This document shows positions 3,303 to 43,608 of a DNA stretch of 64,000 bases, in pieces; positions within the stretch are counted from its first letter, which is position 1; every line of letters begins with the position of its first letter. The DNA lies in assembly GCF_017876495.1 (NCBI RefSeq), contig NZ_JAGIOB010000001.1, positions 2,852,001 through 2,916,000 on the forward strand. Direction: 5' to 3'. The notes beneath the pieces were generated by a model that made no database searches, was not told where the DNA came from, and saw nothing but the letters and a program-made list of their open reading frames with translations. This DNA comes from Microlunatus capsulatus (GTDB lineage: Bacteria; Actinomycetota; Actinomycetes; Propionibacteriales; Propionibacteriaceae). Made by a program: the position numbers and the translations under genes.

Positions 3303-4460
3303 ATGAGTGACGAGCGCATCAGTGTGCTCATCGCCAACCCGTCGCCCGACGTCTACGGGTCCGACCTGCAGATGCTGGAGAGCATCTCGGCGATGACCGC
3401 GCAGGGCTGGCGGGTCGTGGTGGCTCTGCCGTCCGACGGCGAGCTGGTCCCCCGGATCCGGGCGCGCGGCGGTGAGGTCCACTTCTTCTCCTTCCCGGTG
3501 CTGCGCCGGGCCAACCAGTCGGCGGCCGCCTTCGCCGGCATGGTCGGCTCCGCGGCGCTGGCGGTGCCCCGGCTGGTCGGGCTGATCCGCCGGCTGAAGC
3601 CCTCGCTGGTCTACGTCAACACCGTCACCCTGCCGTGGTGGCTGCTGGCCGCCCGGCTGACCGGCACCCCGACCGTCTGCCACCTGCACGAGGCCGAGAA
3701 CACCGACTCCCCGGTCGTGCGCCGCGCGCTCGTCGCGCCGCTGCGGCTGGCGCACGCCGTCATCGTCATCAGCCGGTCGGCGATGGCCGCCATGGTGGAG
3801 GCCGACCCCGGCCTGGAGGCCCGCGGCCGGCTCATCTACAACGGCGTGCCCACCCCGCCCGAGGAGCCGTCCCCGCCCGCCCGCGACCTGCCGCTGCGCG
3901 CCGTCGTCGTCGGCCGGCTCTCCCCGCGGAAGGCGCCGCACCTGGCGCTGGAGGCCGTCGGCCGGCTCCGCCAGCAGGGCGTCGCCCTCGAGGTCGAGCT
4001 CGCCGGCTCCGCCTTCCCCGGTTACGAGTGGTACGTCGAGCAGCTGGAGCAGCGCGCGGCCCAGGAGGACCTGGCCGGCGCCGTCACCTTCTCGGGCTAC
4101 TGCTCGCCCATCTGGCCCGCCCTGGAGCGCGCCGACCTGGCCATCGCCCCCTCGCTGCGCGAGCCCTTCGGCAACGCCGTCGTCGAGGCGCAGATGTCGC
4201 TGCGGCCGGTCGTCGCCACCGCGGCCCTCGGCCACCTGGAGAGCATCACCGACGAGCAGACCGGCCTGCTGGTCCCGGCCGAGGACGTGGACGCGATGGC
4301 CGACGCCGTCCGGCGCCTCGTCGAGGACGCCGAGCTGGCCGGCTCGCTGGCCGCCGCCGCCCGCGCCAACGCGCTCGCGCGCTTCACCACCGGGCGCTAC
4401 AACGCCGAGGTCGTGGGGCTCGTCCGCGAGCTGACCGGCACCGTGGAGGTGGCCCCGTGA
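3303..4460 (+). CDS. Glycosyltransferase family 4
   Basis: GT-B retaining glycosyltransferase of 385 aa, predicted to act on a lipid-linked glycan at the cytoplasmic membrane. The N-terminal acceptor domain begins VLIANPSPDVYGSDLQ. The C-terminal sugar-nucleotide domain (from about residue 190) contains AVVVGRLSPRKAP and the E-X7-E motif EPFGNAVVE. I chose the ATG at 3303, where homology-like sequence begins; a TTG at 3234 and an ATG at 3258 are in frame but add a basic tail. It is the first gene of a tightly packed operon, and its TGA overlaps the next GTG. Donor and acceptor are unknown. Confidence 0.85.
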   Translation: MSDERISVLIANPSPDVYGSDLQMLESISAMTAQGWRVVVALPSDGELVPRIRARGGEVHFFSFPVLRRANQSAAAFAGMVGSAALAVPRLVGLIRRLKPSLVYVNTVTLPWWLLAARLTGTPTVCHLHEAENTDSPVVRRALVAPLRLAHAVIVISRSAMAAMVEADPGLEARGRLIYNGVPTPPEEPSPPARDLPLRAVVVGRLSPRKAPHLALEAVGRLRQQGVALEVELAGSAFPGYEWYVEQLEQRAAQEDLAGAVTFSGYCSPIWPALERADLAIAPSLREPFGNAVVEAQMSLRPVVATAALGHLESITDEQTGLLVPAEDVDAMADAVRRLVEDAELAGSLAAAARANALARFTTGRYNAEVVGLVRELTGTVEVAP

Positions 4461-5734
4461 GCGCCGTCGCCAGCCTGGCCGGGGTGCTGGACCGGCTGCC
4501 GGGCAGCCGTCGGTTCACCGCCACCCCGCGCTCGCGGACGGTCCGCATCCTCGGCACCCACGGCGTGCCCGCGAACTACGGCGGCTTCGAGACCGCGGCC
4601 GAGAACGTGGCCCTGTTCCTGCGCGACCAGGGCTGGCGCGTCGTCGTCTACTGCCAGGTCCCGGGCACCGGTCCGGTGACCGAGGACGTCTGGAACGGCC
4701 TGGAGCGGGTGCTCATCCCCGTCGACCGGGAGGGCTGGCTGGGCACGTCGCAGTTCGACTGGCTCTCCATCACCCACGCCGCGAAGCACCGCGACGTCTG
4801 CCTCACCTTCGGCTACAACACCGCCGTCTTCAACGTGGTGCAGCGGGTGCTCGGCATCCCCAACGTCATCAACATGGACGGCATCGAGTGGTCGCGGGCC
4901 CGCTGGGGCAAGCTGCGCCAGGCCATCCTCTACACCAACGAGCGGATCGCCTGCTTCGTCGGCAACCACCTCGTCGCCGACCACCCGGTCATCGAGACCT
5001 ACCTGCACACCCGGGCGCCGGCGCGGAAGGTCAGCACGGTCACCTACGGCGGCCCGACGGTGCTCGACGCCCCGACCGACGTCGTGGAGGCGCACGGGCT
5101 CACCCCCGGCCGCTACCTGACGCTGATCGCCCGGCCGATCCCCGAGAACACGATCCTCGAGATCGTGCAGGGCTTCTCGGCCCGCCCGCGCGGCGTCGAG
5201 CTGGTCGTCCTGGGCGGCTACAAGCCCGACGAGGACGCCTACCACCGGGCCGTCGTCGAGGCGGCCGGTCCCGAGGTGCGCTTCGTCGGCGGCATCTACG
5301 ACCCGGCGGCCACCGCCGCCCTCCGCTTCCACAGCCTCGGCTACGTGCACGGCCACACCGTCGGCGGCACGAACCCGTCGCTGGTCGAGGCGCTGGGCGC
5401 CGGGAACCCGGTGATCGCGCACGACAACGCCTACAACCGCTGGGTGGCCGGCGACGCCGCCCTCTACTTCCGCACCGCCGCGGACGTCGACGCCCGGGTC
5501 GGGGAGCTGGTGGCCTCCCCGGAGACCGCCGCCCGGCTCGGCGCGGCCGCCCGCGTCCGGCACGCCTCCGAGTTCACCTGGGAGCACGTCGCCGGCCAGT
5601 ACGAGCAGCTGCTGCTGCCCTACCTCGGGCCCGACGGGCGCCGAGGGGTCACCGCGGGGATGGCCGACACGCACGAGACCGGAGGGATGCCGGTGGTCCA
5701 GACCGCAGGGACAACAGGAAGCGAGCAGTCGTGA
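4457..5734 (+). CDS. DUF1972/GT4 glycosyltransferase (rhamnosyltransferase-like)
   Basis: 425-aa glycosyltransferase. It starts with the DUF1972 type of N-terminus seen in rhamnosyltransferases of capsule clusters: HGVPANYGGFETAAEN at about residues 35-50, and NMDGIEWSRARW at about 140. The C-terminal GT4 domain carries GGTNPSLVEALGAGNPV. The GTG start overlaps the preceding TGA (GTGA), and its own stop overlaps the next GTG, so the genes are translationally coupled. The rhamnosyl assignment rests on family association only. Confidence 0.85.
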   Translation: MSAVASLAGVLDRLPGSRRFTATPRSRTVRILGTHGVPANYGGFETAAENVALFLRDQGWRVVVYCQVPGTGPVTEDVWNGLERVLIPVDREGWLGTSQFDWLSITHAAKHRDVCLTFGYNTAVFNVVQRVLGIPNVINMDGIEWSRARWGKLRQAILYTNERIACFVGNHLVADHPVIETYLHTRAPARKVSTVTYGGPTVLDAPTDVVEAHGLTPGRYLTLIARPIPENTILEIVQGFSARPRGVELVVLGGYKPDEDAYHRAVVEAAGPEVRFVGGIYDPAATAALRFHSLGYVHGHTVGGTNPSLVEALGAGNPVIAHDNAYNRWVAGDAALYFRTAADVDARVGELVASPETAARLGAAARVRHASEFTWEHVAGQYEQLLLPYLGPDGRRGVTAGMADTHETGGMPVVQTAGTTGSEQS

Positions 5735-6885
5735 TCAGAGTCGGAGTCGTGGGGCTGGGCAAGATGGGCCTCTCCCACCTGTCCATGTTCAACGCCCACC
5801 CGGAGGTGGAGGTCGCGGGCATCTGCGACTCCGCCGGCTACATGCTGGGCGTGCTGAACAAGTACACCGGGCTGAAGACCTACGCCGACATGGGCGCGAT
5901 GCTCGACGACGCCGAGCTCGACGCCGTGGTCATCTCGACCCCGTCGAGCATGCACGCGCCGATGGTCCGCACCGCTCTGGAGCGCGGGGTGAGCGTCTTC
6001 TGCGAGAAGCCGTTCTGCCTCGACCCGGCCGACTCCGCCGCCCTCACCGCGCTGGCGGAGGAGAAGGGCCTGGTCACCCAGGTCGGCTACCACTACCGCT
6101 TCGTCGGCGCCTTCGCCGAGGTGAAGCGGCTGCTGGACCTCGGTGCCATCGGCCGGGTCACCCACGTGCTGGCCGAGGCCTACGGCCCCGTCGTGCTCAA
6201 GCCGCAGGGCAGCACCTGGCGGACCAAGAAGGCGCTCGGCGGCGGCAGCCTCTACGACTACGCCGCGCACCCGCTGAACCTCGTCAACTGGTACCTGGGC
6301 GAGGCGGAGCGGGCCGGCGGCTCGGTGCTCAACCCGGTGTTCTCCCGCGAGACCGACGACGAGGTGTTCAGCACCCTGTTCTTCGACCCGGCCACGCCGG
6401 GCGGGGCGCCGGTCACCGCTCAGCTGTCGGTGAACTGGAGCGACGAGTCGCAGCGCAAGATGACGACCAAGGTGACCATCTGGGGCACCGAGGGCCGCAT
6501 CTCCGCCGACCGCCAGGAGGTGCAGGTCTTCCTCCGCGACGGCGCCGCCGTGCCCGACGGCTACGTGCCCGGGTGGAACGTCAAGTACACGACGGAGCTG
6601 ACCGAGGAGGTCTGGTTCTACCTGCGCGGCGAGGAGTACAGCGCGCAGGTCGACACCTTCGTCACCCGGGTGATCAAGGGCGAGACCGAGGGCGTCAACA
6701 ACTTCGCCCACGCCGCCGCCACCGACCGGGCCATCCAGCTCATGGTCGACGACGCCGCCGGCGTGGTCCGCGCCCCCGCGACGGGTGCGCTCGCCGCCCC
6801 GGCCGGGCGGACCGGCCGTTCCCTGCCCGGGGCCGTGCGCTCCCGGGTCCGCTCGCTGCTGCAGAAGGTGGGGGTCGCCCGATGA
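5731..6885 (+). CDS. Gfo/Idh/MocA family NAD(P)-dependent oxidoreductase
   Basis: 384-aa sugar or polyol oxidoreductase. The Rossmann domain begins VGVVGLGKMGLSHL and ends around the diagnostic EKPFC motif (about residue 95). GYHYRF and the C-terminal alpha/beta domain follow. The family oxidises or epimerises nucleotide sugars and inositols, so here it probably prepares or modifies a sugar for the flanking transferases. The GTG start overlaps the upstream stop. The last 30 residues are basic and Ala-rich and look like an extra tail. Its substrate is not predictable. Confidence 0.85.
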   Translation: MIRVGVVGLGKMGLSHLSMFNAHPEVEVAGICDSAGYMLGVLNKYTGLKTYADMGAMLDDAELDAVVISTPSSMHAPMVRTALERGVSVFCEKPFCLDPADSAALTALAEEKGLVTQVGYHYRFVGAFAEVKRLLDLGAIGRVTHVLAEAYGPVVLKPQGSTWRTKKALGGGSLYDYAAHPLNLVNWYLGEAERAGGSVLNPVFSRETDDEVFSTLFFDPATPGGAPVTAQLSVNWSDESQRKMTTKVTIWGTEGRISADRQEVQVFLRDGAAVPDGYVPGWNVKYTTELTEEVWFYLRGEEYSAQVDTFVTRVIKGETEGVNNFAHAAATDRAIQLMVDDAAGVVRAPATGALAAPAGRTGRSLPGAVRSRVRSLLQKVGVAR

Positions 6886-7775
6886 CCACGACGACGACCG
6901 AGCAGGTCCGGATGGACCGGCTGCTGTTCGGGGACAACCAGTTCTTCGGCGTGAACCACATGTCCGAGGAGAAGGCCCGCGCGCAGGCCATGAAGTTCCA
7001 GGACATCAGCGTGGTGCAGTCGGTGCTCGACGACGCCTACGACGAGGGCGTCACGACCTTCATGTGCACCACGCACGACCGGATCGCCCTGGTGGCCGAT
7101 CACGTCCGCGCCAACCCCGAGCGCTACCCGGACATGACCTTCTACCCGTGCATGCCGTACGCGCACAAGTACGCCAACGCCATGACCGAGGACGGCCCGC
7201 TGGGCGCCATCAAGCGCTTCCTGCCGGACGAGGGCTTCCTCGACGCGGCGCTGCGCGGCAGCCGCTCGCTGGCCACCAAGGACATCGAGGGCATCGTCAC
7301 GCTGCTCATCGACTCCGAGATGAAGATGTTCGCCGGGCTCCGGACGCCGGTCATCTTCCTGCAGAACGTCGTCGTCGACCTGCTCCTCGGGCTGGGCTTC
7401 AACGAGGCCTTCAAGATCTTCCACGACCACGTCCGGGCCCGCTACGGCGCCGAGCCGGGGTTCATCACCATGAACACCCCGGCCCTGCTGGACGTGCTGG
7501 ACGGCCTCGGGATCGTCAACCCGATCGTCTGCTCCAACATCAACAAGGTCGGATTCCGGATGAGCGGCGGCATGGAGGCCTACCACCGGATGCTGGCCGA
7601 GCGGGAGTTCCGCGCGATCGCCATGTCGGTCTTCGCGTCCGGGGCCATCGAGCCGCGCGAGGCGATCGAGTGGGTCTGCGCCCAGCCGAACATCGAGTCG
7701 ATCGTGTTCGGGGCCTCCAGCCGCCGCAACATCGCCGGCACCAAGGCCCTCGTCGACCAGTACTGGGTCCGCTGA
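6882..7775 (+). CDS. Unrecognised protein, probably TIM-barrel, in glycan operon
   Basis: 297 aa. The ATG overlaps the upstream stop as ATGA. Landmarks are LLFGDNQFFGVNHMSEEKA near the N-terminus, TFMCTTHDR at about 58, YPCMPYAHKYANA at about 86, and a C-terminal IESIVFGASSRRNI. That last segment resembles the phosphate-grip strand of aldo/keto-reductase-like barrels, and the alternation of hydrophobic strands fits a TIM barrel. I do not see the AKR catalytic Tyr-Lys pattern. Conserved-looking His, Asp and Cys residues suggest an enzyme rather than a structural protein. Position between an oxidoreductase and CDP-alcohol genes implies a role in building an unusual glycan substituent. Confidence 0.7.
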   Translation: MTTTTTEQVRMDRLLFGDNQFFGVNHMSEEKARAQAMKFQDISVVQSVLDDAYDEGVTTFMCTTHDRIALVADHVRANPERYPDMTFYPCMPYAHKYANAMTEDGPLGAIKRFLPDEGFLDAALRGSRSLATKDIEGIVTLLIDSEMKMFAGLRTPVIFLQNVVVDLLLGLGFNEAFKIFHDHVRARYGAEPGFITMNTPALLDVLDGLGIVNPIVCSNINKVGFRMSGGMEAYHRMLAEREFRAIAMSVFASGAIEPREAIEWVCAQPNIESIVFGASSRRNIAGTKALVDQYWVR

Positions 7776-7842: not shown

Positions 7843-7932
7843 CGGGGCCCTTTCCGGCTACCCTTCCGGTACCGGACGCCGGGGTGCCGAGAATCCAGTC
7901 CGCAAACACCCGCGTGTGGGGAGTTGAGCACA

Positions 7933-8322
7933 TTGTCTGTCGGTTATCTCGCCCACAGCTTCGACCTTCTGAACGTCCGCGACCTCGACCTGGTGGCCCA
8001 GGCCGGGGAGCGCTGCGACGAGCTCGTGGCCGGCGTCCTCGCCGACGACCTCGTCGAACAGCGCTACGGCCGGCGGCCGGTGGTGCCGGTGGCCGAGCGG
8101 CTCGCCCTGGTCGCCCGCGTCCGCGGGGTCAGCCGCGCCGTCGAGCAGACGGGTGCCGAGGTGCCCGCCGAGGTGGGAGCCGTGACGGCGTTCGTCGTCG
8201 CCGACGAGCCCTCGGTGCTCGACGGGGTCGACGCCGTCGTGCTCAGCCCGCGCCGGGAGACCGCCTCCGACGTGCTCCGGCACGCGCTGCGGGCCGCGGT
8301 CTCCGACGAGGCCGTCGCCTGA
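7933..8322 (+). CDS. Degenerate cytidylyltransferase-like protein
   Basis: 129 aa, aligning end to end with the intact cytidylyltransferase at 9086-9505. It has VGYLAHSFDLLNVRDLDLVAQAG-like sequence where the partner has VGYVPGAWDMFHVGHLNILLRA. The catalytic HxGH is replaced by NVRD and the C-terminal S/T-rich CTP-binding motif is missing, so catalysis is unlikely. CDELVAGVLADD and PVVPVAERL match the partner region by region. I chose the TTG at 7933 because GGGGAG (7918-7923) lies 9 nt upstream; a TTG at 7924 is too close to it. Its stop overlaps the next ATG. A regulatory or complex-forming subunit is the likeliest role. Confidence 0.75.
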   Translation: MSVGYLAHSFDLLNVRDLDLVAQAGERCDELVAGVLADDLVEQRYGRRPVVPVAERLALVARVRGVSRAVEQTGAEVPAEVGAVTAFVVADEPSVLDGVDAVVLSPRRETASDVLRHALRAAVSDEAVA

Positions 8323-9089
8323 TGGCCGCCGGCACCCAAGTGCAGGCCCGCGGCTTCGGCGCGGCCCACGCCCAGCTCCGCAACGCGCAGAAGACGTCCA
8401 AGGGCGCCCCGGCGTACTCGCTCTACGTGAACCGCCCGCTGGGCAGGGTCTTCGCGGCCGCCGCCTTCCAGGTGGGGATGACCCCCAACCAGGTGACCTG
8501 CGTCAGCGCCCTGGCCACGTTCAGCGGCATCGTCTGGCTCGCCGCGGGCGCGCCCACCTGGCTGACCGGCATCGGCGTCTGCCTGCTGCTGGTGCTCGGC
8601 TACGCCCTCGACTCCGCCGACGGCCAGCTCGCCCGGCTGCGCGGCGGCGGCAGCCCGGCCGGGGAGTGGCTGGACCACATGTTCGACGCGGCCAAGAACT
8701 CGATGCTGCACCTGGCGGTGCTGATCATCGCCTTCCGGCACTTCGACCTGGCGCTGGGCTGGCTGCTGGTGCCGATCGCCTTCACCGTCGTCACCGCCGT
8801 GATGTTCTTCGGCATGCTGCTCAACGACTTCCTGGCCCGGGTGGACCGCGCCCAGCACGGCCGGCCGGCGCCGTCGACGGAGGGGTCGACGCCGCTGCGG
8901 ACCCTCATGAAGATCCCCGCCGACTACGGCGTGCTCTGCCTGGTGTTCCTCGTGCTCGGCGCCCCGCTGGTCTTCTTCACCCTCTACGGCCTGCTGGGGC
9001 TGGGCACGCTCGGCTACCTCGCGCTGGCCCTGCGCAAGTGGTACCGCGACGTCTCCGCGCTCGGCGCCCCGGAGCGGGTGGCGGCGTGA
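8322..9089 (+). CDS. CDP-alcohol phosphatidyltransferase family membrane protein
   Basis: 255-aa integral membrane enzyme that transfers a phosphoalcohol from a CDP-alcohol to an acceptor hydroxyl. The diagnostic metal-binding motif DG-x2-AR-x8-G-x3-D-x3-D is complete, from DGQLAR to EWLDHMFD (about residues 90-113). Hydrophobic segments before and after fit about six membrane spans. The N-terminus up to NRPLGR is longer than in core phospholipid synthases. It lies between two cytidylyltransferase-like genes with overlapping stop and start codons at both ends. So the CDP-activated alcohol is probably made by the next gene. The acceptor may be a glycan rather than a lipid. Confidence 0.88.
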   Translation: MAAGTQVQARGFGAAHAQLRNAQKTSKGAPAYSLYVNRPLGRVFAAAAFQVGMTPNQVTCVSALATFSGIVWLAAGAPTWLTGIGVCLLLVLGYALDSADGQLARLRGGGSPAGEWLDHMFDAAKNSMLHLAVLIIAFRHFDLALGWLLVPIAFTVVTAVMFFGMLLNDFLARVDRAQHGRPAPSTEGSTPLRTLMKIPADYGVLCLVFLVLGAPLVFFTLYGLLGLGTLGYLALALRKWYRDVSALGAPERVAA

Positions 9090-9505
9090 GCACCCCGGTC
9101 GTCGGCTACGTGCCGGGCGCCTGGGACATGTTCCACGTCGGGCACCTCAACATCCTGCTGCGGGCCCGCGAGCACTGCGACCGGCTCGTCGTCGGCGCCG
9201 TCACCGACGAGGCCCTCTTCGCGGCCAAGGCCAAGCACCCGGTGGTGCCGCTGGCCGAGCGGCTCGAGGTGGTGGCCGCGCTCGACCTCGTCGACGAGGT
9301 CACCACCGACTTCTCCTCGGACAAGCTCGAGGTGTGGGAGCGTGTCCGCTTCGACGTGCTCTTCAAGGGCGACGACTGGCGGGGGACCGCCAAGGGCGAC
9401 AAGCTCGAGGCCGACATGGCGTCGGTCGGGGTGAGGGTGCACTACTTCCCCTACACCGTGCACACCTCCAGCACGCTGCTGCGCTCGCTGCTCTCCGAGC
9501 GCTGA
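9086..9505 (+). CDS. Glycerol-3-phosphate cytidylyltransferase-like enzyme
   Basis: 139-aa nucleotidyltransferase of the TagD type, making a CDP-alcohol from CTP and an alcohol phosphate. The catalytic motif is intact, WDMFHVGH at about residues 13-20, and the C-terminal HTSSTLL corresponds to the CTP-binding RTxGISTT region. KGDDWRGT matches the conserved mid-protein loop. The GTG overlaps the upstream stop. The true alcohol (glycerol, ribitol or another) is unknown. Confidence 0.88.
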   Translation: MSTPVVGYVPGAWDMFHVGHLNILLRAREHCDRLVVGAVTDEALFAAKAKHPVVPLAERLEVVAALDLVDEVTTDFSSDKLEVWERVRFDVLFKGDDWRGTAKGDKLEADMASVGVRVHYFPYTVHTSSTLLRSLLSER

Positions 9506-9536: not shown

Positions 9537-10274
9537 TCAGCTGGGGGCGCGGCCGCGGAAGGCGACCACCGGGGTGTCGACCGAGTAGTCGACGGTGATC
9601 AGCACGTCGGAGCGTCGGTCCTCCGGCACCGCGAAGACGAAGGTGCCGCTCGCGCGCTCCCCGGGGGCCACCGACCTCGGCAGCGCGCGGGTGCCCGGAC
9701 CGCTCAGCGCGGACCCTGGGGCCTCGTCGGCCCCGTGGTAGAGGTTGACGACGGTGCTGGACAGGTCGACCCGCTCGCCGGACCGGTTGGTCAGGGTGAC
9801 GGTGGCGCGGACCGCCGGCCCGGACACCTCGCCGGGCCCGCTCGCCTCGCCGGCGACGGCCTCGAGCCGGCTCACCCGCGCGGTCAGGCCCTCCTCGACC
9901 TCCTCCGGCTCGTCCAGCGGCACCGGCGGCTTCGTGCTGACCTCGGCCGTCGGCGCCGGGGCCTCCTCCGGCTCCTCCTCCGCGGTGGCGCTCGCCGACG
10001 GCGAGGTCCGCGCGGTCGGGCTCGCGGCGGCGGTCGGGCCGGCCGAGGACGGGGCGGCCGTCGGGACCGGGCTGGCGGTGGGCGTCGCCGACGGGGACGT
10101 CTCCGGCGTGGTGGCCGGGGAGCCGCTGGGCACCGGGGTGCCGGCGGGCGGCTCGACGGCGGCCGGCTCGGACCGCACCTGCCGGACCACCAGCACGGCG
10201 GCCACGAGCACGGCCACGACGGCCAGGACCAGGGCCAGCCGGACCGGCCAGGTCCGGGGTGCGTCTGCCGCCAT
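9537..10274 (-). CDS. Membrane-anchored envelope protein, DUF4352-like domain (paralogue A)
   Basis: 245 aa. A short cytoplasmic N-terminus precedes a membrane anchor at about residues 10-32, and a Pro/Thr/Ser/Ala-rich linker runs to about 110. A beta-rich domain of about 125 residues follows. Landmarks are ASGPGEVSGPAV, TNRSGERVDLSS, a PG after RSVA, TFVFAVPEDRR and a final VVAFRG. The same pattern recurs in the proteins at 22119-22727 and 39304-40080. The domain resembles DUF4352-type immunoglobulin-like telokin folds, which is a fold-level guess. AGGAG lies upstream of the ATG. It is divergent from the anchored beta-helix protein at 10525. Confidence 0.72.
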   Translation of the reverse strand: MAADAPRTWPVRLALVLAVVAVLVAAVLVVRQVRSEPAAVEPPAGTPVPSGSPATTPETSPSATPTASPVPTAAPSSAGPTAAASPTARTSPSASATAEEEPEEAPAPTAEVSTKPPVPLDEPEEVEEGLTARVSRLEAVAGEASGPGEVSGPAVRATVTLTNRSGERVDLSSTVVNLYHGADEAPGSALSGPGTRALPRSVAPGERASGTFVFAVPEDRRSDVLITVDYSVDTPVVAFRGRAPS

Positions 10275-30296: not shown

Positions 30297-30302
30297 ACTC
30301 TA
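30297..30302 (-). promoter_or_regulatory. -10 box TAGAGT for the polymerase transcript
   Basis: It lies about 110 nt before the leader ORF in the 173-nt gap after the glycosyltransferase fusion, downstream of a terminator-like palindrome. No clear -35 is seen. Confidence 0.4.
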
Positions 30303-35103: not shown

Positions 35104-36206
35104 CAGCCCCGCCCCGCCGCGACGGCGTCGACCTGGCCGGCGAGCGCGTCGGTCGCCAGGGCGAGCGTGCTGGCGGCCCGCTCCCGGACGGCGGTGACGC
35201 GGGCGGGCAGGTCGTCGCGGGCGGCGATGCCGGCGACCAGGGAGGGGGCCTCGTCACCGGCGGTGCGCAGGTCGACGACGTGCTCCCAGCCGAGGTCGGC
35301 CATCAGCGGCGCGAACTTGCGGGAGTAGGCCAGGGGGATGGCGGGGGTGCCGACCGACAGCGCGTTGAGGCAGGCGTGCATCCGCGAGCCGATGACCAGC
35401 TCGGCGCCGGCCAGGGTGGTCCGGATGTCGGTGAGCGACGTCGGCACGATCACCTCCGCGCCGGGGGCGTGGGTGTCGCGGAACTCCTCGACCGCCGGCA
35501 CGTCGTCGTCGGGGTTGTCCGAGGGCAGCACGTGGGCCAGCAGGCTCACGGTGCGGCCGGCGGCGACCAGCCGGTCGTGCACCTCGGCGACGGTGCGCCG
35601 GTAGGCCGCGGCGTCGACGTGCGGGCCGGGCTGCCAGAGCAGGCCGGAGACGTTGAGCACGACGTCGCGCCGCGTCGTCGGCTCGGGGACGTCGAGGGCG
35701 AACACGACGTCGGTGGTGAGCACGTCGACGGGCCGGCCCAGACCGGCGGAGGCCTCGGCGCTGGTGCTGTCGCGGGCCATCACGACCGCGGCGGTGCGCA
35801 GCGAGCGCTTGGCCAGGGCCTTCGCCCGCCGGGAGCCGAAGGGGCCAATCGTCTGCGGGCTCAGCACGACCGGCACGCCGACCCGGGAGGCGAACTCCGT
35901 GGTCGCGCACATGGCCGAGAGCCGCGGCAGCCCGTAGATGTCGGCGAAGGAGTCACCCGCGCGGGTGTCCATCACGAGGTCGAACCCGCGGAACCAGTCG
36001 GCCAGGCCGTGGCGCCGGAGCACCGCCTCCTTCGCGACCTCGGCCACCGAGCCGAGCCGCACCGGAGCCGTGCGGGCGCCGTAGTTGTAGAACACGAACT
36101 CGGCGTCCGGCCAGACCCGACGCGTCAGGGCCTCCGTGCCGGCACCGAGAACTCTCACCCCGAGGTTTGGGGACCGGTCGTCGGCCCAGAGAACCAAAAC
36201 TCTCAT
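35103..36206 (-). CDS. Polysaccharide pyruvyl transferase family protein
   Basis: 367 aa of the CsaB/WcaK family, which transfers pyruvate from PEP to make ketals on glycan sugars. Features are VLWADDRSPNLGVRVLG at the N-terminus, VVLSPQTIGPF near 130, MARDSTSAEA, and the C-terminal substrate loop VIGSRMHACLNALSVGTPAIPL with its catalytic-type Arg and His. I chose the ATG at 36206, at the start of the conserved strand, with AAGGA about 10 nt upstream; a GTG at 36209 is also possible. First gene of the four-gene operon with the Fe-S protein, flippase and GT fusion. Confidence 0.88.
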   Translation of the reverse strand: MRVLVLWADDRSPNLGVRVLGAGTEALTRRVWPDAEFVFYNYGARTAPVRLGSVAEVAKEAVLRRHGLADWFRGFDLVMDTRAGDSFADIYGLPRLSAMCATTEFASRVGVPVVLSPQTIGPFGSRRAKALAKRSLRTAAVVMARDSTSAEASAGLGRPVDVLTTDVVFALDVPEPTTRRDVVLNVSGLLWQPGPHVDAAAYRRTVAEVHDRLVAAGRTVSLLAHVLPSDNPDDDVPAVEEFRDTHAPGAEVIVPTSLTDIRTTLAGAELVIGSRMHACLNALSVGTPAIPLAYSRKFAPLMADLGWEHVVDLRTAGDEAPSLVAGIAARDDLPARVTAVRERAASTLALATDALAGQVDAVAAGRG

Positions 36207-36316
36207 CACAATCCGTCCTTGCTTGGTAGGCGCATCACTGTACGGCTCGGATGACACGGTCGTATTACGCGCGCGCCAGCGTCCGGTGGTGGTGCGCAGA
36301 GCGGCCCCCCGAGGCC

Positions 36317-36360: not shown

Positions 36361-39237
36361 CTAGCGGGCCGTCAGCTCTCCCGTCCGCCGGGCCGTGATC
36401 TCGCTCACGGAGAGCCTGACCGGGGCCGCCGAGCTGCCGGACAGGTAGGCCCGGACGGCCACGCCGGCCGGGCTCTGCAGGGCGGCCGTGGTGTCGGTGG
36501 CGGTGGCGGCCCAGGCCGTCGGCTCGGTGGTGCCGGCCGGCCAGACCTTCGTCCGCAGCGTCGTGGTGCCCGAGCCGTAGCCCTGGATGCGGACGCGGTA
36601 GCCCTGCCCGGGGACGAAGGTCCCGGGCAGCACCTTGCTGGCCAGGTTGGTCTCGGTGCCGGCCACGTTCCGGTTGAGGTAGACGACCATCGTGCCGTTG
36701 GCCTGCACCCAGACCTTGGCGTGGTAGCCGTTCGCCTGGTCGCCGCGGACGACGGCGCGGGTGTACTGCCCGCCGCCCGTCGGCGCCTTGTCGAAGGCGA
36801 AGGTCAGCTGCAGGTCGGTGTCGGTCGAGGAGATCGGCAGCCGGGCCGTCGGGCCCGAGCCGGCGGCGGCCATGGTGATGACCCCTGCGCCGTCGGCGAC
36901 GGTGAACAGGCTCGTGCTGCCGCTGTAGGTCCAGGCGCCGCCGGTCGGCGCGCTGCCCCAGCCCGAGGTCGAGGTCCGCTCGAAGGTGTCGTCGGCCAGC
37001 ACGTCGGACGGCGGGGCCGTGACGGTGACGCTCTTGGTCACCGTGCCGGTCGCGCCGTCGTCGTCGGTGACGGTGAGGCGCACGTCGTAGGTGCCCGCGG
37101 CCGCGTAGGTGCGGTTCGCCGTGGCCCCGGTGGCGGTGGTGCCGTCACCGAAGGTCCAGGCGTAGGAGGCGACCGTGCCGTCGGCGTCGGCGGACCCGCT
37201 GCCGTCGACGTCGACCCGCAGGCCCGCGGTGGTGCTGGTGAACGAGGCCGTCGGCGCCGTGTTCGCCGGCGGCGTCGGGGCGACGGTCACCGACCGCGTG
37301 GTGGTGCCCACCGCGCCCTGGTCGTCGGTGACCGTGAGCTTGACGCTGTAGGTCCCGGCGGCGGCGTAGGTCCGGGAGGCCGTGCGCCCCGTGGCGGTGG
37401 TGCCGTCGCCGAAGGTCCAGGCGTAGGAGGCGATGGTGCCGTCGGCGTCGGTGGAGCCGCCGCCGTCGACGCTGGCGGTCAGACCGGTGGTGGTGGCGGT
37501 GAACGACGCAGTCGGGGCCGCGTTCCCGCTGGCGGTGACGCTGTTCGAGACGGGGCTGAGTAGCTCGTTGCCAAACGGGTCGGTGACCCGCACCTGGTAG
37601 GTGTGGCTGCCCGCCGGCGCGGTCTTGTCCTCCACCGTCTGCGTCGGCAGCGTCCAGAAGTTGCTGTCGACGGTCCGGGTGTCCACCAGGGCCTCGGCCG
37701 CGGTGCCGCGGTCGCGGTAGAGCTGGTAGGTCAGCCGCTGGTTGTCCTTGTCCCAGGCCGCGCCGTAGGTGACCCGGACGGTGCCCGGGGCCGGCACGGA
37801 GGCCGCGGTGGCGGGCGGGGCGCTGCGCACGGGCACGGTGCCCAGGTACTGCGGGCCCACCTTGTTGGCGGGCACGCCCGGCGCCGCGCCGGGTACGGCG
37901 TAGCGGGTCAGGCCGTACTGCTCCTTGCCGTTGACGGTCGGGAACTCCCCGCCCAGGGCGATGTAGCCGCTGCCGCTCACGACGCTCCAGGCGGCCTGGT
38001 ACTGCTTGCTGTAGATGCCGATCCCCAGCTCGGGGTACCAGTGCAGCATCGTCGGGGCGGGGCGGCCCTTGTAGTTCCAGCCGTAGGCGTTCGGGCCGTT
38101 GTTGAGCCCGGTGGGCGCGGTGGTGAAGGCGTTGGCCGGCTGCCACCGGGTGCGCGGGCTGGTGTCGCCGAACGCGCCGATCGAGCGGCAGTCGTGGGCG
38201 TGGCTGACGGTGTAGGTGACGTCCCCGACCGGCTCGACGTCGTAGGTGTCGCCCAGGCAGTCGACCATCCAGCGGATGGCCCCGTTGGCCGGGTTGAGGG
38301 AGAAGCTGCCCTCGAACAGCCCGCCGGCGCCGAAGGCGAAGCCGCTGCCGTAGACGTAGGTGCCGTCGGTGGTGAGGGAGTTGATCGCGCCCTTGCCGGA
38401 GTCCCGCAGCGTGCCGCTGGCGGCCCAGGGCAGGTTCGTGCCGGTCGTCGCGCCGACGGCGCCAAGGCCGTAGACGTTCGCGCCGTTGAGGGTGGCGAAC
38501 TGCCCGCCGATCACGACCTTGGTCTGGTCCGGGGTGAGGGTGAGCGCCCAGACGTAGGCGCCGTCGGTGGCCGAGGGGGCCCAGGGCAGCAGGGCGCCGT
38601 CGGCCGCGCCGAAGGCCGCCAGCCGCTTGCGGGCGCTGGAGGTCGGGGCGGCGGTGCCGGTCGCGCTGCCGAAGGCGCCACCGGCGTAGACGGTGGCGTT
38701 CGTCGCCGTCAGCGCCTTGACGTCCTGGTCGACCGAGGGGCTGAAGCCCTCGACCAGCGCGCCGGTGGCGGTGTCGAACGCGGCCAGGTGCCCGCGCGGC
38801 TTGTTGTCCACCGTCGTGAACGAGCCGCCGACGTAGACCCGCTTCCCGTCCGGGGACGCCGTGACGGCGAGCCCGGGCGCGTTCAGCGTGTGGTTGAAGG
38901 AGGCGACCCGCTCGCCGGTGGTGATGTCGTAGGCGAAGAGGTGGGACACGGCGATCTCGGTCGGCCCGCCCTTCCACATGCCCGCCGGGCGGGCCTTGGT
39001 GAAGTCGCCGGTGGCGTAGACGGTGGTGCCGACGACCACCTGGCTCCAGACGACGCCGGTCAGCTGCCAGGTGGGCAGCGGGTCCACCGACGCCGTCGTG
39101 GGCAGGGTGGTCGAGATCGGGCGGGTGTCGGCGGTCGCGGCCGGGGCGGCGCCCAGGCCCAGCGCGACCAGGGCGGTCGCGAGCCCCCCGGCCACCGCCG
39201 CGGACAGGCGGGACCGGCGGCCCTGCAGGATTCCCAT
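36361..39237 (-). CDS. Secreted beta-propeller / PKD surface protein
   Basis: 958 aa. The signal peptide is about 1-36. A propeller runs to about 475, with VYVGGSFTTVDNKPRG-type blades and a HAHDC loop at the position of HHHDC in the giant protein at 16107. An Fn3-like domain follows (about 485-565), then two PKD domains (about 567-654 and 660-742, each ending in TRSVTV or TKSVTV). The C-terminus is the shared module (743-958), starting DDTFERTSTSGWGSA. It lacks LamG domains and an anchor. It is 66 nt downstream of paralogue C and near the priming transferase. Probable extracellular glycan-associated protein; no enzyme motif recognised. Confidence 0.82.
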   Translation of the reverse strand: MGILQGRRSRLSAAVAGGLATALVALGLGAAPAATADTRPISTTLPTTASVDPLPTWQLTGVVWSQVVVGTTVYATGDFTKARPAGMWKGGPTEIAVSHLFAYDITTGERVASFNHTLNAPGLAVTASPDGKRVYVGGSFTTVDNKPRGHLAAFDTATGALVEGFSPSVDQDVKALTATNATVYAGGAFGSATGTAAPTSSARKRLAAFGAADGALLPWAPSATDGAYVWALTLTPDQTKVVIGGQFATLNGANVYGLGAVGATTGTNLPWAASGTLRDSGKGAINSLTTDGTYVYGSGFAFGAGGLFEGSFSLNPANGAIRWMVDCLGDTYDVEPVGDVTYTVSHAHDCRSIGAFGDTSPRTRWQPANAFTTAPTGLNNGPNAYGWNYKGRPAPTMLHWYPELGIGIYSKQYQAAWSVVSGSGYIALGGEFPTVNGKEQYGLTRYAVPGAAPGVPANKVGPQYLGTVPVRSAPPATAASVPAPGTVRVTYGAAWDKDNQRLTYQLYRDRGTAAEALVDTRTVDSNFWTLPTQTVEDKTAPAGSHTYQVRVTDPFGNELLSPVSNSVTASGNAAPTASFTATTTGLTASVDGGGSTDADGTIASYAWTFGDGTTATGRTASRTYAAAGTYSVKLTVTDDQGAVGTTTRSVTVAPTPPANTAPTASFTSTTAGLRVDVDGSGSADADGTVASYAWTFGDGTTATGATANRTYAAAGTYDVRLTVTDDDGATGTVTKSVTVTAPPSDVLADDTFERTSTSGWGSAPTGGAWTYSGSTSLFTVADGAGVITMAAAGSGPTARLPISSTDTDLQLTFAFDKAPTGGGQYTRAVVRGDQANGYHAKVWVQANGTMVVYLNRNVAGTETNLASKVLPGTFVPGQGYRVRIQGYGSGTTTLRTKVWPAGTTEPTAWAATATDTTAALQSPAGVAVRAYLSGSSAAPVRLSVSEITARRTGELTAR

Positions 39238-39303: not shown

Positions 39304-40080
39304 CTAGCGGGCGTCCCCTCGGAACGTGGCGAGGCCGTGACGGGCGTCGAGGTCGACGGTCAGCGCGACCGCGGACCGTCCCGACGCCGGGACGGCGAAG
39401 GAGTACCGCGCGGACGCGCGGTCCCCCGGGGCGAGGCGGCCGGTGAAGTCGGCGGCGTCCTCGTCGTAGACGGGCCGGGCCTGCAGCGGCGGCCGGCCGT
39501 AGGTGAGGCTGGTGATGACCCGGCTGAGGTCCAGCGGCTCGTCGGACTCGTTGGTCACCCGCAGCCGGAAGCTCGTGAACGGGCCGATCCGGCTGCCGGG
39601 TCCCGGCTGGTCCAGCTCGCCCTGCGTGACCTCGACCACCGCGACGCGGACGCCGTCGGACCAGCGCAGGCCGTCGGCGAGCGCGCCCTCCACCGCCGGC
39701 AGCCGGTCGCGGGCGTCCTCCCGGTCGGCGGGCACCGGCTGGGCCGGCGCCGTCGGGTCCGGGGCGTCCGCGGCGGAGCCGGAGGCCGACGGCGCCGCGG
39801 TCGGGCCGCCGGCCGGGCCGCTCGGCGTCGAGCCCGGCTCCGGGGCCGAGGTCGTGGCCGTCGGGCTGGCGCCGGGCCGGCCGGACGGCGAGGCCGTCGG
39901 GGTCGGGCTCGGCGCGGCAGAGGTCGTGGCGGTGCTGGTCGTCGAGCTCGGCGCTGTGCCCGCGCTCGGCGTCCCCGACGCCGTCGGCGCCGGCGTGCTG
40001 CACGCCGTCGTGGCCAGGGCGGACCCCAGCACGACGGCGGTCAGGGCGAGCCGCAGCGCGGCCCGCGGGGGGACGAGCAC
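39304..40080 (-). CDS. Lipoprotein with DUF4352-like domain (paralogue C)
   Basis: 258 aa. The signal ends in a lipobox-like ATTAC (Cys about 27). A long low-complexity Ser/Thr/Pro/Ala linker runs to about residue 115. The C-terminal domain keeps the landmarks of paralogues A and B: GPGSRIGP, TNESDEPLDLSR, APGDRASARYSFAVP and LATFRG. It is more diverged from A and B than they are from each other. It lies between the priming transferase (13-nt gap) and the propeller protein. The consistent pairing with large exported proteins is the best functional clue. Confidence 0.72.
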   Translation of the reverse strand: MLVPPRAALRLALTAVVLGSALATTACSTPAPTASGTPSAGTAPSSTTSTATTSAAPSPTPTASPSGRPGASPTATTSAPEPGSTPSGPAGGPTAAPSASGSAADAPDPTAPAQPVPADREDARDRLPAVEGALADGLRWSDGVRVAVVEVTQGELDQPGPGSRIGPFTSFRLRVTNESDEPLDLSRVITSLTYGRPPLQARPVYDEDAADFTGRLAPGDRASARYSFAVPASGRSAVALTVDLDARHGLATFRGDAR

Positions 40081-40093
40081 CGTGGTGGCCGGC

Positions 40094-41773
40094 TCAGTAG
40101 GCGCCGCGGCGCGCGACCACGGCGAAGAACGTCTTCCACAGGATGAGCAGGTCGAGGGTGAGGGTCCAGTTCTCGACGTAGCGGAGGTCGAGGCGGACCG
40201 TCTCCTCCCAGCTGAGCAGCGAGCGGCCGCTGACCTGCCAGAGACCGGTCAGGCCGGGGGTGACGAGGAGGCGGCGGCGGGCGTGGTCCTCGTACCCGTC
40301 GACCTCGGACTGCAGCGGCGGCCGGGGGCCGACCAGCGACATGGTGCCGGCGAGCACGTTGAACAGCTGCGGCAGCTCGTCGAGGGAGAACTTGCGGAGG
40401 AACTTGCCGACGCGGGTGATGCGCGGGTCGTCCTCCATCTTGAACATGTGGCCGATCTCGGGGTTCTGCGCCCGCAGCTCGGCCAGCTTGGCCTCGGCGT
40501 CGACGTGCATGGAGCGGAACTTGAGCATCGTGAACGTGGAGCCGTCCAGGCCCACCCGGGTCTGGCGGAAGATGACCGGTCCGCCGTCGTTGAGCTTGAC
40601 GGCCAGGGCCAGCGCCGCGAGGACCGGGGAGATGACCAGGACGCCGGCGCCGGTCAGGACCAGGTCGGTGGCGCGCTTGACGAAGCGGCGCCAGCCGGTG
40701 AAGTGCGGCTGCTCGACGTGCAGCAGGGGCAGGCCGACGTAGGGCCGGATGTGCATCCGCGGGCCGGCGACCTCGACGAGGCCGGGGTGCACCAGGAGCT
40801 CGACCCCGGCGCCCTCGAGGGCCCAGGAGAGCTCGCGGAGGTAGTTGTGGCGGGTCGCGTCGCTGCCGGTCACGGCGACCGCGTCGGCGGCGTAGGCGCG
40901 GATCAGCTCGGGGACCTGGTCCAGGTCGCCGATGACGGCCAGGCCGGCGTCGCGGGCCCGGGAGACGTCGGAGCGCGGCACGCAGACCCCGATGACGTTC
41001 ATCCCGGCGTGCGGCTCGCGGGTCAGCACCTCGGTGAGGTCGGCGGTGGCGTAGGCGCTGCCGACCACGATCACGCGGCGGACGTTGCGGCCGGCGCGCT
41101 GCTGGCGGTGCAGGTTCTTCCGGGCGGCGAAGCGGACGGCGATGCTGCCGAGCCCGGCGAGCGGGACCGCGATGACCGAGGTGGCGACGACGCCGAGGCT
41201 CTCGGTGATGGCCGCGGGGACCGCGCCCACCGCGACGGCGAAGACGACGGCCCGCATGACGGCGCGCATCTCGTCGTCGCCGACGCCGATGTTGCTGCGC
41301 TCGTAGCCGCGGCTGATCGCGATGGCCAGCGGCCAGGCGAGCGCCGCGCCGGCCACGATGACGAGGGTGTTGCCGGTGGTGAAGGGGTACTTCAGGACCG
41401 GCAGCGCGAGCAGCACGGCGACGACGCCGACCAGCACGTCGGCGGCGGCCACCGTCAGCGTGTAGCGCTGGGTCCAGGCGGCCAGGCCGGGCGTCCGGAC
41501 CGGCGACGGCTCCAGGACCGCCTCCGAGCGCGGGTCACGGCGGGCGGTCTCGGCGGCGGAGTCGGCCGGACGACGACGGGCGACGTCCATCGCCCCGGTG
41601 TCCGGGCTGACGTCGTGCGAGGGGTGGGCGGTGCTGGCGGCCAGCGCGTCCCGGCTCTCGGCGGTGTCGCGGGGTCGCAGCTCGGCCGCGAAGTCCTCGT
41701 TCCCGTCCGGGCCCGGGCGGGCGCGGCCGTCCTCGGCGCCGTTCGGCGCCGCGGAGTGCTCAGGTGTTGCCAT
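40094..41773 (-). CDS. Undecaprenyl-phosphate glycosylphosphotransferase (priming enzyme)
   Basis: 559 aa, WbaP/CpsE family. It transfers a sugar-1-phosphate to undecaprenyl phosphate and so starts repeat-unit assembly. A disordered N-terminus of about 95 residues precedes four spans and a CoA-binding-like domain (VIVVGSAYATADL). The catalytic Bac_transf domain (about 361-559) starts RFVKRATDLVL. It includes VIFRQTRVGLDGSTF, LKFRSM, KFSLDELPQLFNVL, MSLVGPRPP and PGLTGLWQVSGR. All family landmarks are intact. It is the only priming enzyme seen in the locus. It is preceded by a TTGACA/hairpin region. Confidence 0.92.
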   Translation of the reverse strand: MATPEHSAAPNGAEDGRARPGPDGNEDFAAELRPRDTAESRDALAASTAHPSHDVSPDTGAMDVARRRPADSAAETARRDPRSEAVLEPSPVRTPGLAAWTQRYTLTVAAADVLVGVVAVLLALPVLKYPFTTGNTLVIVAGAALAWPLAIAISRGYERSNIGVGDDEMRAVMRAVVFAVAVGAVPAAITESLGVVATSVIAVPLAGLGSIAVRFAARKNLHRQQRAGRNVRRVIVVGSAYATADLTEVLTREPHAGMNVIGVCVPRSDVSRARDAGLAVIGDLDQVPELIRAYAADAVAVTGSDATRHNYLRELSWALEGAGVELLVHPGLVEVAGPRMHIRPYVGLPLLHVEQPHFTGWRRFVKRATDLVLTGAGVLVISPVLAALALAVKLNDGGPVIFRQTRVGLDGSTFTMLKFRSMHVDAEAKLAELRAQNPEIGHMFKMEDDPRITRVGKFLRKFSLDELPQLFNVLAGTMSLVGPRPPLQSEVDGYEDHARRRLLVTPGLTGLWQVSGRSLLSWEETVRLDLRYVENWTLTLDLLILWKTFFAVVARRGAY

Positions 41774-42043: not shown

Positions 42044-42937
42044 TCACCCCCGGGGCAGCAGCCCGGCGATGTTCGACGTCATCAGCCCCCGGCAGCCCAG
42101 CCGCAGCGCCCGGGACCGGTCCTCCTCCGAGCTCAGCGCCCACATCATCGCCGGCTTGCCGTTCCGGTTCGCCGCGTCGGTGACCGCGCTGACGAAGGCG
42201 TCCGGCTGCTCGCGCGGGACGCCGAGCATGTCGATGTGGGGCGCCGCGGCGAACCGCTCCAGGTTGGCGCCGAGGTGGCTCGGCTGGTCCAGCACGTAGC
42301 CCCAGGTGCCGAAGCCGTTCCCCTTCGCCCGCTCGAACTCCCCGGAGTTCACGTACTGCTTCCACACCACCCGCTCGGGCTGGCCGAGCCCCACCAGCCG
42401 CGCCATCAGCGGCCCCGCGGCCGCCGGGACCTTGGGCTCCACGAACAGCACGAACCGGTCCGCGTAGGCGTCCACGACGTCGTCGAACCTGGTCAGCGGC
42501 CTGCTGGGCTGGGCGGGGTCGGTCGTCCCGGCCGCACTGACCTGCAGCGTCGACAGGGTCGACCAGGGCGTGGTGGCGATGTCGTGGTCGACGCCGGTCA
42601 CCCGCGCGGTGCTGGGGTCGTGGCTGCAGACGAGCACCCCGTCGGCGCTCAGGCAGACCGAGATCTCGAGCGCGTGCAGCCCCGGCAGCCGGGCGGCCTG
42701 CTCGTAGGCGTAGGCCGTCATCTCCGGCCAGTTCCCGCCGCCCCCGCGGTGGGCCACGTAGAAGGGCCGCTCCGCGACCAGCGACGCGACCGTGGCCGCG
42801 GGGCCGCCGCCGGGGGCCGGGGCGGTCGCGCCGTCGGCGCCGCAGCCCACCGCGGCCGCCGTCGCGCCGGCGAGCAGCCCGCCGAGCAGGGTGCGGCGGG
42901 ACAGGGACCCGGGCGAGCGGGTCGTGGCGCTGGTCAT
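42044..42937 (-). CDS. Glycerophosphodiester phosphodiesterase-like Tat lipoprotein
   Basis: 297 aa. The N-terminus has both a twin-arginine motif, SRRTLLGG, and a lipobox, AVGC. So it should be exported folded and lipidated. The GDPD fold is indicated by VAHRGGGGNWPE and LEISVCLSADGVLVCSHDP. The usual E-x-D metal pair is EIS here, so one metal-binding Asp is replaced by Ser. Later landmarks are LFVEPKVP and LGCRGLMTSN. It may cleave a polyol-phosphate substituent, which would fit the CDP-alcohol genes in the locus, or have lost activity. Confidence 0.75.
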   Translation of the reverse strand: MTSATTRSPGSLSRRTLLGGLLAGATAAAVGCGADGATAPAPGGGPAATVASLVAERPFYVAHRGGGGNWPEMTAYAYEQAARLPGLHALEISVCLSADGVLVCSHDPSTARVTGVDHDIATTPWSTLSTLQVSAAGTTDPAQPSRPLTRFDDVVDAYADRFVLFVEPKVPAAAGPLMARLVGLGQPERVVWKQYVNSGEFERAKGNGFGTWGYVLDQPSHLGANLERFAAAPHIDMLGVPREQPDAFVSAVTDAANRNGKPAMMWALSSEEDRSRALRLGCRGLMTSNIAGLLPRG

Positions 42938-43089
42938 GGTGGTCCTGTCGGGCGGGAGCGCGGACGGCCATCTTAGGGAAGCGGCGGCGGAAACCCTTCC
43001 CGACGAGGTCGCGATCGGGTCACGAAGGGCTTTTCCGGGGTCGCGGAAAGGAGCGGGAAATACGTCCTGAGCGCTGATTCCGGTGACAT

Positions 43090-43608
43090 TCAGCGCAGCA
43101 GGCGGCCCTCGGACCCGGCGGGCAGCCGGACCTCGACGAGCCGGGCCGTGCTGGGGTCGGACCAGTCGCCCGCCACCTCGAGCCGGGCCAGCGTCGCCGG
43201 TGGGAAGCGGTCGGCGACGGCGGCGGACGCGGCCGGGGAGGAGGTCCCGGGGTCGGCCACGTCGTAGACGACCCCCGGCACGGCGGGGGCGTGCCCCACC
43301 ACCAGGACGGTGCCGACGTCGGCGGCCGCGACCAGCTCGAGCACCTCGTCGGAGCCGGCCTGGTAGAGCAGCGGCACCAGCTCGACGGGCACGTCGAGGC
43401 CCAGCCGCTCGAGCGTCTGGCGGGTGCGGGTCGCCGGTGAGCACAGCACCCGGTCGGGCAGCACGCCCCGGTCGCGCAGGAAGGCGCCCACGCCGTCGGC
43501 CTCGACCTCCCCGCGCGGGCTCAGCCGCCGGTCGGCGTCGCGGTGGCCGGGACGGGCCGGCTCGGCGGTCGCGTGCCGGAGCAGCAGCAGGGTCCGCGTG
43601 GTGGTCAC
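43090..43608 (-). CDS. SixA-type histidine phosphatase
   Basis: 172-aa branch-1 histidine phosphatase. LLLLRHATAEP contains the phospho-accepting His (RHA in place of RHG). LCSPATRTRQT and VLVVGHAP supply the second Arg and His. Length and motifs match SixA-like proteins, which act on phosphohistidine or small phosphates. A TAGCCT -10 ends exactly 6 nt before the GTG, so the transcript is probably leaderless. Substrate unknown. Confidence 0.82.
   Translation of the reverse strand: MTTTRTLLLLRHATAEPARPGHRDADRRLSPRGEVEADGVGAFLRDRGVLPDRVLCSPATRTRQTLERLGLDVPVELVPLLYQAGSDEVLELVAAADVGTVLVVGHAPAVPGVVYDVADPGTSSPAASAAVADRFPPATLARLEVAGDWSDPSTARLVEVRLPAGSEGRLLR

Follow-up and report, generated by a model that had tools for sequence, protein, structure and literature searches.

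The window analyzed here is a 64,000-nucleotide stretch (bases 2852001 to 2916000) of the complete 4.41-Mb genome of Microlunatus capsulatus; positions below count from its first base. Between positions 3303 and 43608, we called 27 genes by codon-position G+C and scanned their products for protein families (Pfam for all 27, NCBIfam for 20). The locus combines a set of glycan-building genes with four large exported proteins and three small anchored paralogs interleaved among them (Table 1). Two of the large proteins carry a beta-propeller (PROP1 and PROP2) and two a beta-helix (BHEL1 and BHEL2); the small ones are LIPO1 to LIPO3. Family matches confirm the original prediction of a full Wzx/Wzy-style set: a priming enzyme, a flippase, a chain-length regulator, acyl and pyruvyl transferases, and five glycosyltransferase (GT) domains, namely, GT4, DUF1972-GT4, GT2, and both halves of a GT2-GT4 fusion. 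The polymerase is the weak member of the set, with the poorest family match, and its hydrophobic sequence and gene position fit a Wzy-like protein. Judged by these matches, the locus is a predicted Wzx/Wzy-type glycan pathway in which the polymerase call is weak.

Among 293 genomes of the order, PROP is found (E < 1e-150) at no fewer than 55 places in 35 genomes, and the next matches have E values of 2.7e-115 or weaker; the count is a lower bound, since at most four candidates were scored per genome. A LIPO homolog lies within 12 kb of PROP at 46 of the 55 places and on the same strand in 44 of these 46; 67 of the 77 LIPO rows entered the distance count, the 10 weakest being left out, and 26 of the 67 (ranks 21, 34, 35, 38, and below) are not near PROP. 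The priming-enzyme family PF02397 lies within 30 kb of PROP at 32 of the 55 places, compared with an expected 1.43. Counted by genome, it is near PROP in 22 of 35, compared with 1.41 expected and a maximum of 8 in 20,000 simulations. The expectation is the share of each genome that falls within the covered distance, and contig ends may depress the observed count. A class-wide draw found PROP at E ≤ 1e-120 in 20 of 393 genomes (14 of 122 genera).

The original prediction had proposed to follow the module that the four large proteins share, together with the priming enzyme and polymerase. Synteny holds for PROP and is mixed for the module as a marker. Among 42 regions fetched for holding a module, 26 have a full propeller and 16 do not. 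Regions with a propeller nearly always have two or more glycan-gene labels (25/26) and usually a called LIPO (23/26), and 16 of the 26 have a BHEL label; only 1 of the 16 regions without a propeller has two or more glycan labels. Thus, it is the propeller that marks the glycan locus, the module being used by other exported proteins as well. This recount lowers the role of the module and raises that of the propeller, leaving our overall assessment unchanged.

The same association is seen in other actinobacteria. A scan of named genomes with the propeller profile gave at least 557 relatives, the best 80 of which gave 76 loci for analysis, in Microbacterium, Arthrobacter, Leifsonia, Cryobacterium, Geodermatophilus, Blastococcus, Actinomadura, Frankia, Nocardioides, Cellulomonas, and other genera. 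These loci are the most similar relatives, are not independent (several come from one genus), and are in some cases cut by contig ends. Two or more distinct glycan-gene homologs lie within about 10 kb in 58 of the 76 loci, and a homolog of the priming enzyme, Wzx, Wzy, or Wzc does so in 45; none of 20 control stretches, drawn from 14 genomes of the window's order, contained a glycan-gene homolog. LIPO is present in 45 loci by gene call and profile, 39 of which have two or more glycan labels, and in 65 by tblastn label, a count that may include matches to low-complexity stalks. The module was called in 49 of the 76. The CDP-alcohol phosphotransferase gene (CDPOH) is near the glycan genes in 36 loci, the cytidylyltransferase gene CTb in 26, and either one in 44; the CDPOH figure is unselected, and a separate count from 28 locus-picked PF01066 rows is biased and was not used. 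The recurrence of these genes (window positions 7924 to 9505) hints that the glycan has a phospho-alcohol part or a lipid anchor. Related loci differ in which genes they contain and in how these are ordered.

A comparable set lies within 37 kb in Actinomyces oris WVU627 (NZ_CP116225.1). In that record, a "LamG domain-containing protein" is surrounded by genes annotated as GT4, DUF1972, and GT2 proteins, an acyltransferase, a chain-length protein, a flippase, a sugar transferase, a cytidyltransferase-family protein, and a CDP-alcohol phosphatidyltransferase. Profile tests of 16 of the 26 annotated genes identified the LamG protein as a PROP with module (E = 1.6e-176), which has as neighbors a second PROP of 525 amino acids (6.3e-140) and a LIPO of 227 amino acids (4.4e-22). 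Thus, PROP usually lies near LIPO, and both lie among glycan genes, across several actinobacterial genera and families. For PROP, this co-occurrence supports the predicted unity of the locus.

PROP1 and PROP2 are paralogs, with 44% identity over about 510 amino acids of propeller. The AlphaFold2 model of the propeller has a predicted local distance difference test (pLDDT) score of 90; Foldseek matched it to WD40-like and designed eight-bladed propellers, and a designed propeller was the sole match of the propeller profile to PDB sequences at E ≤ 0.01. Both propellers carry a near-invariant DCxGDxY ... HxHxC motif, in which C327, H346, H348, and C350 (PROP2 numbering) are invariant in 56 of 56 aligned propellers. 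These residues may form a functional (metal) site or a disulfide. Two other PROP genes were seen in this genome. One, at L174:4771-6423 (genome position 2836770), is short, lies about 14 to 15 kb upstream of the window, and has a match that crosses a stop codon; nearby genes read as GT4- and heptose-like. The other (L175:10080-12473) is full length, lacks the module, and lies away from glycan genes; homologs of similar size are found in genomes G088 and G074.

The small proteins were originally described as three paralogous lipoproteins. Their paralogy stands (BLASTP E values of 2e-25 for LIPO1-LIPO2 and 8e-12 for LIPO1-LIPO3, with LIPO2-LIPO3 directly at only 0.002), but they are not all lipoproteins, because LIPO1 has a transmembrane (TM) segment and no lipobox. 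Ser, Thr, Pro, and Ala make up 59 to 79% of the stalks (79% in LIPO1), and Ser and Thr make up 21 to 34%. A membrane anchor is predicted in all 45 called LIPO homologs, 21 with a lipobox and 24 with a TM segment, by a simple hydropathy and lipobox rule applied with no control set; the homolog in L097 was scored as TM, and a lipobox-like Cys is present there too. The use of two anchoring modes for one LIPO head suggests that being anchored is what matters.

BHEL1 and BHEL2 are also paralogs (37% identity over about 500 amino acids); inspection by eye shows a TM segment at the N terminus of BHEL1. A profile of 28 BHEL sequences matches the glycoside hydrolase family 120 (GH120) xylosidase XylC (3vst) at 3.4e-18 overall. 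The N-terminal stretch contributes 1.5e-14, and the catalytic stretch taken alone has an i-Evalue of 1.1, which is not significant; the GH120-like assignment therefore rests on the N-terminal match together with coinciding invariant residues. K565, W588, D590, and E614 (BHEL2 numbering) are invariant in 28 of 28 sequences, and D590 and E614 align with XylC Asp382 and Glu405, given as nucleophile and acid/base, respectively, in PMC8954004. Alginate C5-epimerases match the BHEL profile less strongly (1.2e-7 and above). BHEL1 and BHEL2 are probably GH120-like glycosidases by sequence; an epimerase or lyase is possible.

As originally predicted, all four large proteins share one module. It is about 209 amino acids long and present in five copies (one each in BHEL1, BHEL2, and PROP2 and two in PROP1) that are 24 to 63% identical in pairs; it is the only part common to the PROP and BHEL types, and in both PROP1 and PROP2 it ends 6 residues or fewer from the C terminus. 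Of the Pfam and NCBIfam matches listed at E ≤ 0.01, none had its best stretch inside the module, and the module profile had no match to PDB sequences at E ≤ 0.1. For the AlphaFold2 model (pLDDT of 97.9 from an 86-row alignment), the best Foldseek matches are L-type lectins (ERGIC-53, VIP36, and legume lectins), ERGIC-53 having an E value of 5.5e-8 and a template modeling score of 0.57; CBM66, alginate lyase Aly36B, and GH43 proteins are also among the 50 matches listed. The model identifies the module as a predicted ConA-like jelly roll with an L-type-lectin-like fold, for which glycan binding is plausible. With a limited number of candidates scored per genome, the module profile matches at least 26 of the 147 family genomes (in 9 of 29 genera) and at least 39 of the 293 order genomes (in 13 of 37 genera). 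In this genome, it finds the five locus copies and three elsewhere (E = 1.9e-34 or better). One of these orphans (L077:9907-11808) is fused to a calcineurin-like phosphoesterase (metallophosphatase) and a PKD domain. In L087, L089, and L093, the module follows a short N-terminal region in proteins of 310 to 330 amino acids with similar starts; the L089 protein, the sole one of the three scanned, has no Pfam match.

From the sharing of this module it had been argued that the four proteins recognize the same ligand, an argument that module phylogeny does not support for BHEL-PROP pairs. BHEL and PROP modules are 29.5% identical within a locus (n = 35 pairs) and 29.5% identical between loci (n = 1,883), so the shared-ligand argument falls; for a common ligand as such, these identities speak neither way. 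Modules of the same protein type are closer within a locus than between loci (50.8% [n = 48] versus 39.0% for PROP-PROP and 34.6% [four pairs] versus 29.3% for BHEL-BHEL), a closeness that gene duplication explains equally well. These counts left out, from 167 module copies, those of the G088 regions (4), L106, and G003 and the three orphans of this genome; L163, copies shorter than 160 amino acids, and copies holding X had been left out earlier. By these identities, module lineages follow the type of host protein and not the locus.

With somewhat better than even confidence, we favor the interpretation that the genes of the locus work as a single unit, which makes an exopolysaccharide (EPS) and also supplies the protein part of its matrix. 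The EPS would be made and decorated by the Wzx/Wzy set, a step that rests on sequence. PROP would be secreted and, by way of the propeller and the lectin-fold, LamG, and PKD domains, would bind EPS, cross-link it, or attach it to surfaces. LIPO would be an anchored stalk whose small head captures PROP or glycan, keeping the matrix at the cell surface. Where present, BHEL proteins would be GH120-like glycosidases of the retaining type, either secreted or tethered to the membrane, and would trim the EPS or release it. Synteny, anchoring, and the types of domain present are the basis on which we infer the PROP, LIPO, and BHEL steps.

The closest parallel is the vps/rbm/Bap1 system of Vibrio cholerae, which pairs a polysaccharide with dedicated exported propeller and beta-helix proteins: according to the respective reports, the Bap1/RbmC beta-propeller binds Vibrio polysaccharide (VPS; PMC10102183), and RbmB is a VPS lyase with a predicted parallel beta-helix (PMC11637428). 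By analogy, vps/rbm is a precedent for such a pairing, and the original view that no described system has this combination was too strong as an idea. The present locus differs in its actinobacterial host, in a beta-helix that is GH120-like and not PL6-like, in the added PKD, LamG, and lectin-fold domains and anchored stalk protein, and in the CDP-alcohol and cytidylyl transferases that it contains. Its matrix proteins are not homologous to those of vps/rbm by the tests run, so the comparison is one of working alike and not of membership; the locus probably works like vps/rbm, with matrix proteins that lack homology to it.

Other known systems resemble parts of the locus. Its core, with a priming enzyme, GTs, Wzx, a Wzy-like protein, a Wzc-like kinase, and decoration enzymes, is that of a Wzx/Wzy-dependent EPS pathway, which here is interleaved with the four large exported proteins and three anchored paralogs. 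BHEL1 and BHEL2 share with XylC the beta-helix start and the aligned Asp/Glu pair but carry an N-terminal lectin-fold module, are exported or membrane tethered, and have weak similarity in the catalytic half. The module has the jelly-roll fold of L-type lectins (ERGIC-53/VIP36 and legume lectins) and CBM66, from which it differs in sequence (8 to 17% identity in the 50 Foldseek matches listed). The imp sporangium-matrix cluster of Actinoplanes likewise joins an actinobacterial Wzx/Wzy-type matrix glycan to an adjacent glycosidase gene; its hydrolases are GimA and GimB, GH5 is named in the cluster legend, and the text does not use the terms PKD, propeller, or helix (PMC12691653). No description of an actinobacterial counterpart was found among the top-ranked literature matches, in a search outside which most subscription journals lie.

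Several results weigh against a matrix system encoded as one unit. The priming enzyme is absent within 30 kb at 23 of the 55 PROP places, and 18 of the 76 named loci have one glycan label at most. This genome encodes seven module proteins, three of them away from the locus, as are one full-length and one short PROP, and none of nine orphan loci has two or more glycan labels. Scattering in unrelated loci, which would have spoken against the original prediction, thus occurs for a minority of these proteins; the module regions without a propeller belong here too. Neither the module nor PROP was matched in G018, a genome of this genus assembled as one contig. BHEL is an accessory, with a label in 21 of the 76 named loci and in the 16 propeller regions counted above, and tblastn at 1e-3 matched its helix part nowhere in the A. 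oris stretch; the catalytic half of the XylC match is weak by itself. The top 50 of 1,635 Foldseek matches to the propeller include neither RbmC nor Bap1, and module phylogeny gives no sign of a common ligand within a locus. Binding, secretion, the EPS product, and retention are inferred.

Alternative roles can be envisaged for the same genes. If the locus glycosylated proteins, the exported Ser/Thr/Pro-stalk proteins would be the glycan substrates and the Wzy-like protein an O-oligosaccharyltransferase. The composition of the LIPO stalks, the linkage of LIPO to PROP, and the fact that the Wzy-like match is to an O-antigen ligase family (PF04932) would all fit; but the Wzc-like regulator and the enzymes that add pyruvyl and acyl groups suggest a polymer, PROP has folded domains for which a pure substrate would have no use, and S/T/P-rich linkers are widespread in exported proteins of actinobacteria. 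We regard this explanation as unlikely. We assign no greater likelihood to a role in synthesis or export, in which PROP, LIPO, and BHEL would edit or release the polymer at the membrane and not act in the matrix. The anchor predicted in every called LIPO and the TM segment and GH-like active site of BHEL1 argue for it, against which stand the very large size of PROP with its adhesin-like LamG and PKD arrays, the several exported paralogs of some loci, and the absence of BHEL from many.

Least probable of the three, in our estimation, is a surface-antigen island, a hypervariable site shared by adhesin and glycan genes that have no joint function. Variable gene content and order, orphan copies of the module and PROP, and the glmU- and prs-like housekeeping genes that adjoin several loci are what such an island would show; the recurrence across genera and families of the PROP-LIPO pair, nearly always on one strand, and of the same kinds of glycan genes is not.

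To our knowledge, how Gram-positive actinobacteria retain and remodel EPS has been little studied. Beyond the favored reading of a single EPS and matrix unit lies a broader proposal, which we offer tentatively and think somewhat less likely to hold than to fail: a widespread actinobacterial matrix system in which EPS is held by a LIPO-stalk/PROP tether with no covalent wall link and remodeled by GH120-like enzymes, an independent Gram-positive counterpart of vps/rbm. If true, distant bacteria came independently to pair a matrix polysaccharide with propeller and beta-helix proteins. The recurrent gene set offers testable targets in the propeller protein, the anchored stalk, the lectin-fold module, and the GH120-like enzyme, and most of it is also held by an oral Actinomyces.

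Table 1. Features of the M. capsulatus locus (window positions)
Feature	Position	Strand	Evidence
GT4a, GT4 glycosyltransferase	3303..4460	+	PF00534 4.4e-29
GT4b, DUF1972/Cps2T-like glycosyltransferase	4457..5734	+	PF09314 2.6e-13; NF046071 1.9e-41, below cutoff
Gfo/Idh/MocA oxidoreductase	5731..6885	+	PF01408 8.7e-27
Conserved protein, companion of Gfo	6882..7775	+	Gfo-adjacent homologs in other loci
CTa, cytidylyltransferase-like	7924..8322	+	PF01467 3.7e-4, 21.1 bits versus cutoff of 21
CDPOH, CDP-alcohol phosphotransferase	8322..9089	+	PF01066 1.9e-9
CTb, cytidylyltransferase	9086..9505	+	PF01467 1.7e-13; TIGR00125 above cutoff
LIPO1, TM-anchored, Ser/Thr/Pro/Ala stalk and small C-terminal domain	9537..10274	-	Weak DUF4352, E = 0.0017
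BHEL1, N-terminal TM segment, module, GH120-like beta-helix	10525..13092	+	PF13229 9.9e-21
Module copy in BHEL1	10681..11310	+	
Predicted catalytic Asp, BHEL1	12385..12387	+	Column of BHEL2 D590, Asp in 28/28
Predicted catalytic Glu, BHEL1	12457..12459	+	Column of BHEL2 E614, Glu in 28/28
Wzc-like chain-length regulator/tyrosine autokinase	13331..14764	-	TIGR01007 3.5e-36, above cutoff; PF02706 5.2e-6
GT2a, GT2 glycosyltransferase	15014..15952	+	PF00535 5.1e-13
PROP1, exported beta-propeller, two LamG, six PKD, two modules	16107..22022	+	Signal peptide by eye
Module copy 1 in PROP1	20220..20849	+	
Module copy 2 in PROP1	21399..22019	+	
LIPO2, lipoprotein	22119..22727	+	Lipobox by eye from translation
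Multi-TM protein	22755..24008	+	No family match
BHEL2, signal peptide, module, GH120-like beta-helix	24309..26783	+	PF13229 1.4e-19
Module copy in BHEL2	24426..25037	+	
Predicted nucleophile D590, BHEL2	26076..26078	+	Aligned with XylC Asp382
Predicted acid/base E614, BHEL2	26148..26150	+	Aligned with XylC Glu405
Acyltransferase 3	26976..28301	-	PF01757 4.4e-20
Hexapeptide acetyltransferase	28267..28821	+	PF00132 1e-11
Wzy-like polymerase/ligase	28853..30298	-	PF04932 E = 0.0015, 18.8 bits versus cutoff of 31.7 (below)
GT2-GT4 fusion glycosyltransferase	30363..32306	-	PF13641 1.2e-10; PF13692 2.4e-5, just below cutoff
Wzx flippase	32303..33859	-	PF13440 3.1e-75
FrhB-like oxidoreductase	33856..35103	-	PF04432 2.2e-23
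Polysaccharide pyruvyl transferase	35103..36257	-	PF04230 1.2e-23
PROP2, exported beta-propeller, following beta domain, two PKD, module	36361..39237	-	Signal peptide by eye
Module copy in PROP2	36382..37005	-	
LIPO3, lipoprotein-like	39304..40080	-	Lipobox-like ATTAC by eye
Priming polyprenyl glycosylphosphotransferase	40094..41773	-	PF02397 1.7e-69; TIGR03025 above cutoff
Glycerophosphodiester phosphodiesterase, accessory	42044..42937	-	PF03009 2.5e-17; homologs in some related loci

Among the remaining proteins, the Gfo companion has no family match in Pfam or NCBIfam, and the multi-TM protein is a possible mannosyltransferase. No LCP-type wall-linking enzyme was matched by Pfam among the 27 locus proteins, the rest of the genome not having been searched, and no exosortase was matched in the 27 proteins (Pfam) or in the 20 scanned with NCBIfam. 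Anchoring by PEP-CTERM/exosortase or by sortase was considered and dropped, since the locus encodes neither enzyme and a C-terminal signal is lacking. The SixA gene (43090 to 43608) at the right edge of the locus is probably a housekeeping gene. Several relatives, like this locus, encode an FrhB/FdhB-like protein close to Wzx and the pyruvyl transferase. The loci L142, L123, and L213 adjoin GlmU-like and prs genes, as though this were a favored location for the glycan island; neighbors in L142 and L123 also read like rplY and pth.

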